Shown here piece by piece: positions 4,372 through 8,860 of a stretch of 46,474 bases of DNA (its first letter is position 1; each line of letters begins with the position of its first letter). The translations under genes and the position numbers were made by a program. The notes beneath the pieces were generated by a model, which saw nothing but the letters and a program-made list of their open reading frames with translations, was not told the origin of the DNA and did not search any database. The stretch spans positions 1 to 46,474 of IMG/VR virus record IMGVR_UViG_3300031758_009207; one strand, given 5' to 3'. This DNA is from a virus.

Positions 4372-4445
4372 GGGGGTATAACTTAACGGCAAAGTAGTAG
4401 GCTTTTAACCTATTAATCAGAGTTCGATTCTCTGTGCCCCTACCA
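4372..4445 (+). tRNA. tRNA-Lys (TTT)
   Basis: Acceptor GGGGGTA/TGCCCCT, discriminator A, CCA encoded. Anticodon stem GTAGG/CCTAT with loop CTTTTAA. Its CCA runs directly into the closing helix of the next structured RNA. Confidence 0.92.
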
Positions 4446-4536
4446 TAAGCAAACACATTAGTGAAAGAACGGACATAGTCTTTAGGGCCTAGCCTGCGGC
4501 ATTGCGGTATCGCGGTGGCTAGTGTGTTTACTTATG
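4444..4536 (+). ncRNA. Candidate structured RNA wedged between tRNA-Lys and tRNA-Met
   Basis: A long closing helix joins the two edges. CATAAG (4444-4449) pairs with CTTATG (4531-4536), then after one C-A mismatch AAACACATTAG (4451-4461) pairs with CTAGTGTGTTT (4519-4529) with one G-T. Inside, GAC/GTC hairpin and CTAGCC/GGCTAG pairing around a GCGG-rich loop. The helix uses the last two bases of the tRNA-Lys CCA and the first base of tRNA-Met, so this insert and the two tRNAs cannot all be fully folded until processed. No ORF. Function unknown. Confidence 0.55.
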
Positions 4537-4610
4537 GTAATGTAGCATAACGGTAGTGCAACACCTTCATACGGTGCCCAGTGAAAGTTCAACTCTTTCC
4601 ATTACCACCA
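4536..4610 (+). tRNA. tRNA-Met or tRNA-Ile2 (CAT)
   Basis: Acceptor GGTAATG/CATTACC, discriminator A, CCA encoded. Anticodon loop TTCATAC. The anticodon stem has an A-C mismatch at its base. Fully paired first acceptor pair means it is not the initiator. Whether C34 is modified to lysidine to read AUA cannot be told from sequence. Confidence 0.85.
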
Positions 4611-5700: not shown

Positions 5701-5774
5701 ATCGCTGTGGTGAAAAGATATCACAAGACCCTGCGAAGGTCTAAGTCCACGTTCAACTCGTGGCAGCGATACCA
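5701..5774 (+). tRNA. tRNA-Arg (GCG), atypical
   Basis: Acceptor ATCGCTG/CAGCGAT, discriminator A, CCA encoded. Anticodon stem AGACC/GGTCT with loop CTGCGAA. T-arm CCACG/CGTGG with TTCAACT. The D-stem GTGA/TCAC holds a loop AAAGATA lacking the usual GG pair. A GCG anticodon is uncommon for arginine in bacteria, where ACG (read as ICG) is normal. Confidence 0.8.
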
Positions 5775-5845
5775 AAATTAGTAAAATTCTATTACGTAAA
5801 ATCCAAGCAGAGTGCAAGGGTTGGCTACATCAAGGAGATATAAAA

Positions 5846-6052
5846 ATGAAACCTATTACTTTTAAAAACCGTTTAAACAACGAACGAGTAGTCTGCGAAG
5901 ACTCTCGTCAAACTCAGAATATAGATGGCGTTGAATATCTTTTAGTCCATCGTCCTGATAATCAACGACATTTCCTTATGCGTAAGGATGTGTTAGAAAA
6001 AGTCAATGGTGTTGGTAGTGTAGTGGCTGCACGGCTGTCTGTGAAACAGTAA
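5846..6052 (+). CDS. Small conserved phage protein ending inside tRNA-His
   Basis: ATG at 5846 with a strong AAGGAGAT site. The 68-residue product starts MKPITFKNR and carries EYLLVHRPDNQRHFLMRKDVL, a pattern I associate with small conserved proteins of marine T4-like phages. The last ~15 codons overlap the tRNA-His gene (from 6008), so the tail VVAARLSVKQ is encoded by tRNA sequence. The tRNA may have inserted over an original stop codon. Function unknown. Confidence 0.75.
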   Translation: MKPITFKNRLNNERVVCEDSRQTQNIDGVEYLLVHRPDNQRHFLMRKDVLEKVNGVGSVVAARLSVKQ

Positions 6053-7682: not shown

Positions 7683-7934
7683 ATGATTCATAGTCAACTT
7701 TCATCAGAAGCAGCAGTTCTAGCATACGGCGATAGATTTGAAATGGTATTAGCGGCGGCTCAACGAGCACGTGAACTGAAAAACAAACATGCTGCCAAGG
7801 TGGAAATTGGCGGTCATGGATTTATTGTCACTGCTCTTAACGAAATTGAACAAGGCAAGTATACTAGATTGGATTTTCTAAAAACAGTTAGGACAAAGAA
7901 AAAAGGACAACGAGATGAATATTTCCCTGCGTAA
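7683..7934 (+). CDS. RNA polymerase omega subunit-like protein
   Basis: An 83-residue protein resembling RpoZ, the small RNA polymerase subunit that chaperones beta-prime. The conserved omega core is recognisable: YGDRFEMVLAAAQRARELK (bacterial form GNRFDLVLVAARRARQL) and later VTALNEIEQGKY (bacterial form TVIALREIAEG). ATG at 7683 has AAAGGA upstream. A phage omega could bind the host enzyme and shift its behaviour; this is inference. It is followed by a gene overlapping by 20 bases. Homology is by motif recall; a profile search would settle it. Confidence 0.75.
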   Translation: MIHSQLSSEAAVLAYGDRFEMVLAAAQRARELKNKHAAKVEIGGHGFIVTALNEIEQGKYTRLDFLKTVRTKKKGQRDEYFPA

Positions 7935-8487
7935 AGCAAACGCTGTTCAGAACAGCATCAACGAAGCCATTAAAGGCATTAAAATTGAAACCAGCATTGA
8001 GATCAACGAATTTCAAGATGCTCAGGCAGAAATGCAAAAGGCCAACGATCTATTGATCGTTAACGACGGTCGTCGACAAAAACTCTTGTTGGCATTGTAC
8101 AACATTCGCGGGCTTGTGGGTACAGCCAATTCTAATTGTGGAATTGATCTAGCATTAGCCAAGGCTGCGTTTATTGACAAGCGTATTGCACAGTTGACTG
8201 AATTGTCAACTCTAAGCCCTGTAAGCGATCTTGCAGTGATCAACGGTAAGTTGGAAAAGATCCGCAATCGCAAAGAAGACAGTCGTGCTAGCCTGTACGG
8301 CCGCGATGACACAGTGTCAACAAGTGTTGTTAGCCGGGCACAGATCGATCAAGCTAAATCTGAGATTCAAAATCTCAAGAAGCAGAAACAGAAGATCAAC
8401 GATGAAGTTCTAGAGTTGAATATCAAGACAGAAGTGCCTTTGAGCGACGATGTTGTTGCTACTCTAACAACAGAAGGTTTAATCTAA
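7915..8487 (+). CDS. Coiled-coil hypothetical protein
   Basis: A 190-residue, mostly helical protein. Residues ~20-60 and ~150-185 (SEIQNLKKQKQKINDEVLEL) are predicted coiled coil. No cysteine pair or catalytic motif stands out. It overlaps the omega-like gene by 20 bases, so both are probably translated from the same early mRNA. I recognise no family. A structural spacer or polymerase-binding role would be guesswork. Confidence 0.75.
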   Translation: MNISLRKANAVQNSINEAIKGIKIETSIEINEFQDAQAEMQKANDLLIVNDGRRQKLLLALYNIRGLVGTANSNCGIDLALAKAAFIDKRIAQLTELSTLSPVSDLAVINGKLEKIRNRKEDSRASLYGRDDTVSTSVVSRAQIDQAKSEIQNLKKQKQKINDEVLELNIKTEVPLSDDVVATLTTEGLI

Positions 8488-8489
8488 AA

Positions 8490-8783
8490 GACCCCGGGCG
8501 CCCTTGCCCGTTATACACAGGGGGTGGGGCAATCACCATAGAAACTGCCTGGTGCATAAGATCTACCATGGTCTCCTGTTGGGGAGGTGCCTTAAATATC
8601 CTAGGGGGAGAACACAACTTAAACCCAAAGCAAAAAATGTGTGGACGGGGCAACCACCCAGTCTAGGGCCTATGTGGTGTAGGTAGCTAGACACTTTATT
8701 GAAGCACATACCCTACGCCCGATTAGTAAGGGAGATAGCGACTAAACGCTGAAGAAAGGTTTAAGTGTGTTTCAATAAAGTTA
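8490..8783 (+). ncRNA. Large structured RNA candidate before initiator-type tRNA
   Basis: Nearly 300 bases, visibly GC-richer than neighbours and without a good ORF. Elements: CGGGC/GCCCG hairpin near the 5' end; a possible H-type pseudoknot in which GGCA pairs TGCC while CACCA in its loop pairs TGGTG just after; and a 3' domain closed by ACTTTATTGAA (8693-8703) with TTCAATAAAGT (8771-8781), enclosing GCACAT/GTGTGT, an AGCG/CGCT hairpin and others. It ends four bases before a tRNA. I do not see RNase P, tmRNA or 6S signatures. Confidence 0.55.
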
Positions 8784-8784
8784 T

Positions 8785-8860
8785 CGCGGGATGGAAAAGT
8801 TGGTATTTCGTCAGTCTCATAAGCTGAAGGTCGTCGGTTCGAATCCGGCTCCCGCAACCA
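8785..8860 (+). tRNA. Initiator-type tRNA-fMet (CAT)
   Basis: C1 (8785) faces A72, the mismatch that marks bacterial initiator tRNA for formylation. The rest of the acceptor GCGGGA/TCCCGC pairs. The loop CTCATAA equals that of E. coli initiator, and the D-stem has A11-T24 as initiators do. But the anticodon stem is TCAGT/GCTGA, without the three G-C pairs that direct initiator tRNA to the P site. CCA encoded. Confidence 0.85.

Follow-up and report, generated by a model that had tools for sequence, protein, structure and literature searches.

A mosaic family of pseudoknot-rich non-coding RNAs in the tRNA arrays of uncultured bacterial viruses

Introduction

Known examples of large structured non-coding RNAs in phages are very few. 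The tRNA cluster of phage T4 gives rise to two stable RNAs, species 1 and 2, which are not tRNAs, are cotranscribed with the phage tRNAs and are shorter than the RNA reported here. GOLLD is an RNA of phages and prophages that lies near tRNA islands and joins a conserved to a variable region, its function being given as unknown; ROOL, another phage RNA near tRNA islands, is described as containing multiple pseudoknots (PMC12286853). Theta (HDV-like) ribozymes are small knotted phage RNAs that adjoin tRNAs, are self-cleaving, and are built on a nested double pseudoknot (PMC10879173). Finally, phage PhiTE evades the ToxIN system with the aid of a non-coding mimic of the repeated antitoxin RNA; expansion and recombination drive the evolution of this mimic (PMC3475682).

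The DNA analysed here (the window) is an IMG/VR virus record of 46,474 bases with 28 tRNA genes, and it contains, in front of one of these genes, an RNA element of about 205 nt to which we refer as the core RNA. It constitutes a new, previously uncatalogued family that occupies a setting like that of GOLLD and ROOL and is a member of neither. With GOLLD it shares the proximity to tRNA islands and the combination of a conserved with a variable region; however, many GOLLD members are described as longer than 800 nt, with a conserved 3′ and a variable 5′ part (PMC12286853), whereas the core RNA is followed by separate 3′ modules. The 55 aligned cores measure 187–207 nt, as opposed to the about 800 nt or more that characterize GOLLD, and core and modules together are bounded by tRNAs or coding sequences. 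ROOL, which resembles the core RNA in its multiple pseudoknots and its location, is larger, with residue numbers that run to at least 464 in its description (PMC12286853). Theta ribozymes likewise resemble the core RNA as small knotted phage RNAs next to tRNAs (PMC10879173), but the core RNA is a series of H-type pseudoknots in which no nested double pseudoknot is found, and it has no match among the HDV-like ribozymes of Rfam. The pseudo-ToxI of PhiTE, also a non-coding phage RNA that evolves by recombination, consists of repeats of one short unit (PMC3475682), whereas the core RNA combines three different units with a common platform; tandem repeats of a single pseudoknot, as in ToxI and similar type III antitoxins, are absent from it, and these antitoxins gave no Rfam match.

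When the whole window was compared with Rfam 15 at the gathering score, only tRNAs were found. A search of 501 bases around the region with E values up to 10 returned a tRNA, an antisense-tRNA match, and three entries that fell well short of the gathering score of their family, and hence no credible match to the core. The GOLLD and ROOL models matched neither the window at the gathering score nor the core at E up to 10, and they were equally absent from two relatives (L110, L038). No antitoxin or decoy RNA of Rfam was matched by the window, the core, or the same two relatives, and the window contains no tmRNA according to ARAGORN and the Rfam tmRNA models. Within the open PMC literature searched, no description of the core RNA was found. 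The first-pass annotation of this DNA had raised the possibility of a new class of RNA near tRNAs that is smaller than GOLLD and ROOL, and the lack of an Rfam match together with the abundant covariation described below supports it. A much smaller, mosaic family in the GOLLD/ROOL setting opens the role of ornate RNAs among phage tRNA genes to comparative tests, and its size of 205 nt makes the RNA easy to transcribe, to probe and to image. The family also offers a covariation-rich test bed for the prediction of pseudoknots and a lead to RNA-based counter-defence.

Location of the core RNA and its 3′ module

The element (positions 8490–8783) fills the gap between a gene for a 190-aa protein (7915–8487, plus strand, with the stop codon ending at 8487) and a gene for tRNA-Met (CAT) (8785–8860, plus strand). 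The core RNA, 204 nt in the window, extends on the plus strand from 8491 to 8694, as delimited by alignment A1 (see below) and by a match of 153.3 bits to R1, the covariance model of the core. It is followed on the same strand by a 3′ module (8693–8781) with a closing stem of 17 bp (8693–8709/8765–8781), and the tRNA-Met gene begins three nt past this module. An RNA candidate without an open reading frame had been placed here, before the tRNA, by the first-pass annotation, correctly with regard to both place and kind, although the closing stem of its 3′ domain had been given as only 11 bp. There is no conserved open reading frame: two of the three forward frames are open in none of 55 core homologues and the third in one, and the 60- and 64-aa frames listed in the region are incidental. 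The 190-aa protein has no match in Pfam or PHROG and has distant homologues in the Dolichocephalovirinae; just upstream of its gene, an Rpb6/omega-like RNA polymerase subunit is encoded (7683–7931; PF01192, E 9.7e-10).

Fold of the core RNA

Comparison of 55 cores yields a fold with, from 5′ to 3′, a first pseudoknot, a hairpin (S3), a second and a third pseudoknot, and a conserved 3′ domain; all coordinates given for it refer to the plus strand of the window. In pseudoknot 1 (8495–8523), helix S1 (8495–8499/8506–8510) crosses helix S2 (8501–8505/8519–8523). Hairpin S3 (8528–8549) is closed by GGCA/TGCC (8528–8531/8546–8549). In pseudoknot 2 (8550–8603), helix S5, formed by TGGTG (8550–8554) and TACCA (8564–8568), crosses helix S6 (8557–8562/8598–8603), which contains one A·C mismatch in the window, and a further hairpin, S7 (about 8570–8591), lies within this unit. 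Pseudoknot 3 (8604–8642) is composed of hairpin S8 (about 8604–8626; GAG/CTT and GGG/CCC) and helix S9, in which the S8 loop sequence ACACA (8612–8616) pairs with TGTGT (8638–8642). The 3′ domain (8644–8694) comprises S10 (8648–8650/8657–8659), S11 (GTCTAG 8661–8666/CTAGAC 8687–8692) and S12 (8669–8672/8680–8683); it is strongly conserved and contains unpaired positions that hardly vary in alignment A1. An outer extension of S10 through GAC/GUC was considered and not adopted; the same GUC covaries with the CUAGAC strand of S11, and the GAC side is nearly invariant.

The first-pass annotation had envisioned one H-type pseudoknot that combines GGCA/TGCC with CACCA/TGGTG. Its GGCA/TGCC part persists as the covarying helix S3, but the CACCA/TGGTG part does not: these strands fail to stay complementary in relatives (in L058, for instance, the loop reads ACCAAA and the partner CUGUG), and the TGGTG strand pairs with UACCA in S5 instead. 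Hence, three H-type pseudoknots are present in the core RNA, none of which corresponds to the one originally proposed.

Comparative evidence for the structure

Folding of a single sequence says little about this RNA. The minimum free energy of the whole region is unremarkable (z = −1.38; 15 of 200 shuffled sequences fold equally well), while that of the 3′ hairpin alone is much lower than expected (z = −4.8; none of 200 shuffles is as good); because pseudoknots are invisible to the method, single-sequence folding of the region is uninformative. We therefore turn to alignment A1, which contains 55 cores chosen from 64 that remained non-redundant after clustering at 88%. Nine members whose 5′ end was not intact or could not be cleanly trimmed were left out (L018, L090, L093, L099, L109, L113, L121, L135, L189), and L120, 169 nt as trimmed, was skipped when the cores were clustered.

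Seven helices aligned by column, including the mutually crossing S5 and S6, provide 1,523 cells for a column test. Standard pairs occupy 93.8% of these cells, compared with 78.5% in shuffles, and pairing drops to 33–47% (at most 47.4%) when the partner strands are slid by one to three columns. Covariation is abundant: 229 cells carry changes on both sides of the pair, against a shuffle mean of 67.6, and none of 500 shuffles reaches this value. The number of pairs having at least one such double change, 20, is not clearly above the 17.8 found in shuffles (40 of 500 are as high). In addition, a chimera test compared fixed helix segments of real cores with chimeras of different members for all helices. 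The proportion of chimeras that reach the median of the real cores amounts to 7% for S6, 8% for S12, 10% for S3, 12% for S5, 13% for S9, 19% for S2, 23% for S7, 30% for S1, 31% for S8, 35% for S11 and 46% for S10; taken by itself, this test gives weak support to S1, S8, S10 and S11, for which 30–46% of chimeras reach the real median. By column, standard pairs fill 98.2% of the S10 cells and 99.7% of the S11 cells, yet both helices vary little, and S1 and S8 are represented by 26 and 35 different strand pairs, respectively. Helix descriptors were also tried; they found nothing in 1, 3 and 14 of the 55 cores and made some picks off the consensus (e.g., in L007, L038 and L087), and we therefore relied on the fixed-segment chimera test and the column test. 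G-U pairs occupy 78 of the helix cells and A-C combinations only 19, which assigns the pairing to the strand that also encodes the tRNAs. At the level of sequence comparison the predicted structure of the core is thus proven, where the folding of one sequence would not have sufficed.

Relatives and their genomic setting

The core RNA is carried by many bacterial viruses, which are uncultured and often very large. Searching with the 190-aa protein led to 80 IMG/VR loci with 53 distinct sequences downstream of the gene. A full core, as judged by the core-end pattern, lies between this gene and a tRNA at 39 of the 53; at 11 the element is missing, the tRNA following 10–13 nt past the gene with nothing in between. 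The remaining loci hold only the 3′ part (L018), a miniature hairpin with a module (L029), or a 47-nt remnant (L011).

A degenerate pattern of the most conserved motif was found in at least 120 stretches of viral contigs, and the combined set amounts to at least 171 core instances, at least 124 of them distinct. Among the matches listed, 110 of the 124 distinct cores are followed on the same strand by a tRNA gene no more than 900 nt away (at most 15 nt for 22 of them, 16–130 nt for 42, 131–360 nt for 42 and more for 4), and none of the 124 has an opposite-strand tRNA nearby. Upstream, 54 of the 124 cores in the matches listed have a tRNA within 700 nt, and 36 of these 54 start no more than 15 nt past its end; the other cores have a coding gene before them, stand at a greater distance, or are found at a contig end. 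The identity of the flanking tRNAs differs widely between loci (Thr, Gly, Glu, Lys, Asn, Leu, Met and others).

The R1 model matched 80 places in a set of 96 sources, 53 in a second set of 49, and 9 in a third of 9; only the matches outside the training set are independent, since 55 of the matched sequences were used to build it. Of 19 IMG/VR records from which the loci come (4,912 to 354,680 bases), 15 contain exactly one R1 match with an E value of 0.01 or less, and the other 4 of the 19 records searched contain none. More divergent copies, some of them second copies within a contig, reach 24–76 bits. Second copies of 24–54 bits, all on the minus strand, were noted between tRNAs in five contigs that also have a full copy (L100, 8042–8238; L149, 14248–14444; L191, 7725–7916; L163, 3222–3416; L134, 9417–9612). 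A second pattern scan produced 13 stretches, nine of them new, and all the new ones are matched by R1 with 36–66 bits; for eight of the new loci a tRNA scan is available, and six of these have the copy between tRNA-Glu and tRNA-Lys. A partial match lies between the same two tRNAs in L215, and the copy in L207 directly follows tRNA-Asn.

Searches of cultured phages by blastn with the stretch from the window and four other members yielded, among 50,697 phage records, tRNA or chance hits only; a hit in Alteromonas phage AD45-P3, for example, is situated among coding genes. One member had no relative in a BLAST search of plasmids. A single scan of 84,980 species genomes with the degenerate pattern produced two hits, both in GC-rich, coding-like sequence with no tRNA next to it; they were judged to be due to chance. 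R1 has no match in the genomes of three cultured Dolichocephalovirinae, jumbo phages of Caulobacter and Brevundimonas. In these phages, a different non-coding gap of 284–311 nt follows the gene that is distantly homologous to the one for the 190-aa protein (L204, 12595–12878; L205, 12607–12898; L206, 12598–12908); by eye, it is closed by a stem of roughly 10 bp, and it contains neither a tRNA nor an Rfam match at the gathering score nor a match to R1. The Rfam scan of 12 relatives covers the best 150 of its 223 rows; in one contig that also carries the core RNA (L194), a group I intron was identified at 5738–5920 on the minus strand (62.9 bits to RF00028).

Exchangeable 3′ modules

Downstream of the core, zero to three modules are found, the closing stems of which mostly start with ACUUUA and end with UAAAGU. 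They fall into several unrelated classes and measure about 70–170 nt. Near-identical modules were omitted from the alignments of classes A and C. Class A (19 of 22 members found were aligned) has a stem of 8 bp, and 10 of its 27 predicted pairs have double changes; in part of its members, an adjacent hairpin reads, by our own interpretation of the sequence, like the T-arm of a tRNA. In class C (8 of 10 aligned), the motifs GGAC and CACC are kept, and double changes are seen in 10 of 30 predicted pairs. By eye, a similar inner stem is often present in modules that belong to different classes (..ACAUU/AGUGU..; L027, L109, L130, L160, L167, L187 and others); this stem is possibly a common site for a protein or nuclease.

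Since each is present without the other in relatives, the core and the 3′ hairpin are separate, exchangeable units. The module of the window is 98% identical to that of L110, whereas their cores are only 67% identical; conversely, cores that are at least 85% identical may have quite different modules or none at all.

Mosaic evolution of the core

The domains of the core are swapped almost independently of each other, and modules have moved between cores. Across pairs of cores, the identity of pseudoknot 1 is correlated neither with that of pseudoknot 2 (r = −0.01) nor with that of pseudoknot 3 (r = 0.04). The other variable domains are partly linked (r = 0.41 for S3 and pseudoknot 2, 0.28 for pseudoknots 2 and 3, and 0.22–0.41 among S3 and pseudoknots 2 and 3 overall), and independence is therefore strongest for pseudoknot 1. 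In the 15 pairs with pseudoknots 1 that are at least 90% identical, the identities of S3 and of pseudoknots 2 and 3 are 0.67–0.69, compared with a background of 0.60–0.66; for pseudoknot 2, the mean is 0.69 versus 0.66. Only 24 of 1,485 pairs combine one domain that is at least 92% identical with another that is at most 60% identical, so that the correlations carry the argument for mosaicism more than such striking pairs do. The window itself has a pseudoknot 1 like that of L004 (0.97) and pseudoknots 2 and 3 like those of L146 (0.91 and 0.97).

Exchange extends to the neighbours of the element. Among 36 loci with the 190-aa gene, the core and the tRNA, several pairs have genes that are 94–95% identical and cores that are 73–75% identical, with a background of 71–72%; over all pairs of the 36 loci, gene and core identities are still correlated (r = 0.32). 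The tRNA-Met beside the element has been replaced as well (75% identity between the window and L003), which indicates that the whole tRNA array is in flux. Domain exchange of this kind, with pseudoknots moving almost independently of one another, is not known to be common among structured RNAs.

Possible roles of the core RNA

The reading that we favour, if tentatively, is that of a trans-acting scaffold RNA with exchangeable binding domains that is punctuated by tRNAs and excised by their processing. The core RNA would be transcribed within the tRNA array and released mainly by tRNA maturation. RNase P cuts at the 5′ side of a tRNA, and a preceding tRNA has its own 3′ processing. Core plus module would thus receive its 3′ end from the RNase P cut at the following tRNA and, where a tRNA precedes, its 5′ end from the 3′ processing of that tRNA. 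The knotted 5′ part and the stem-closed 3′ end might render the released RNA stable towards exonucleases. The conserved 3′ domain would serve as a common platform, and the swappable binding heads would be supplied by the three pseudoknots together with the modules that follow the core; the fast and largely independent exchange of these heads suggests that they would bind host factors that vary from one host to the next. Most plausibly, they would counter defences directed at RNA or tRNA, either as decoys or as inhibitors, from a site next to tRNAs able to replace cleaved host tRNAs.

Counter-defence is our leading guess because of two precedents: phage tRNAs are described as evading tRNA-depleting defences (PMC11555353), and PhiTE as evading ToxIN through its antitoxin mimic (PMC3475682). 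A more specific and rather doubtful version is a hypervariable RNA counter-defence, in which pseudoknot cassettes and 3′ modules, some of them T-arm-like, are rapidly swapped on a fixed platform in the tRNA array according to the defences of the host; if true, it would be an RNA counterpart to the swappable islands of anti-defence proteins. Several observations speak against a trans-acting scaffold RNA. The core RNA matches no antitoxin or decoy RNA of Rfam; the mosaicism may reflect only frequent recombination in phage tRNA arrays, the tRNA-Met at this site having been replaced too; S3 and pseudoknots 2 and 3 are partly linked; and the element is not universal, 11 of the 53 loci and 4 of the 19 records being without it.

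Its setting in tRNA islands, many pseudoknots, and conserved and variable regions, which it shares with the RNAs described in PMC12286853, could also mark the core RNA as a small GOLLD- or ROOL-like RNA that self-assembles into an RNA-only particle, with the modules as cargo or surface domains, and the strong conservation of the 3′ domain would fit such an assembly. We consider this improbable in view of its length (about 205 nt versus more than 800 nt for GOLLD), the lack of an Rfam match, and the exchange of whole domains, for which the interfaces of a particle would have to be kept intact. Also unlikely is a purely cis-acting role, in which the core RNA would be a folded spacer of the tRNA transcript that blocks exonucleases or guides the processing of neighbouring tRNAs and has no role after its release. 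Core and modules directly adjoin tRNAs of varying identity, and plain stem-loops also part tRNAs in these arrays (e.g., at 4441–4539 of the window), but a spacer requires nothing as elaborate and conserved as the core RNA; moreover, 15 of 19 records have a single full copy although their arrays offer many other gaps between tRNAs, and many loci do without the element at the site between the 190-aa gene and the tRNA.

That the core RNA is a self-cleaving or otherwise catalytic RNA which matures tRNAs, as proposed for theta ribozymes, seems very unlikely to us. Phage ribozymes that adjoin tRNAs do exist (PMC10879173), and multiple pseudoknots along with a 3′ domain in which unpaired positions hardly vary would be in keeping with catalysis; however, no ribozyme family of Rfam is matched, and the supported fold of about 205 nt is not a nested double pseudoknot. 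Hardly more credible would be a mobile or selfish DNA or RNA element that homes into gaps of tRNA arrays and whose fold serves its own spread. Such an element would account for a site that is either occupied or empty, for the many different gaps that are used, and for the exchange of modules and domains, but no adjacent gene for a nuclease, transposase or reverse transcriptase was seen in the list of open reading frames and a partial profile search, and the single full copy in 15 of 19 records also argues against it.

Other non-coding stretches of the window

Two further stretches of the window deserve mention. At 4441–4539, a stem of 21 nt per strand (90% complementary) bridges the gap between tRNA-Lys and tRNA-Met, enters both tRNA ends and encloses 57 nt; it is another stem-closed spacer that resembles the 3′ modules. 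The first tRNA gene of the window is preceded by about 800 nt (1659–2467) without any plus-strand open reading frame of at least 60 aa. This stretch contains an inverted repeat of 15 nt at 2353–2408 and, by eye, a CACTCTCC/GGAGAGTG hairpin, and possibly encodes further non-coding RNAs.
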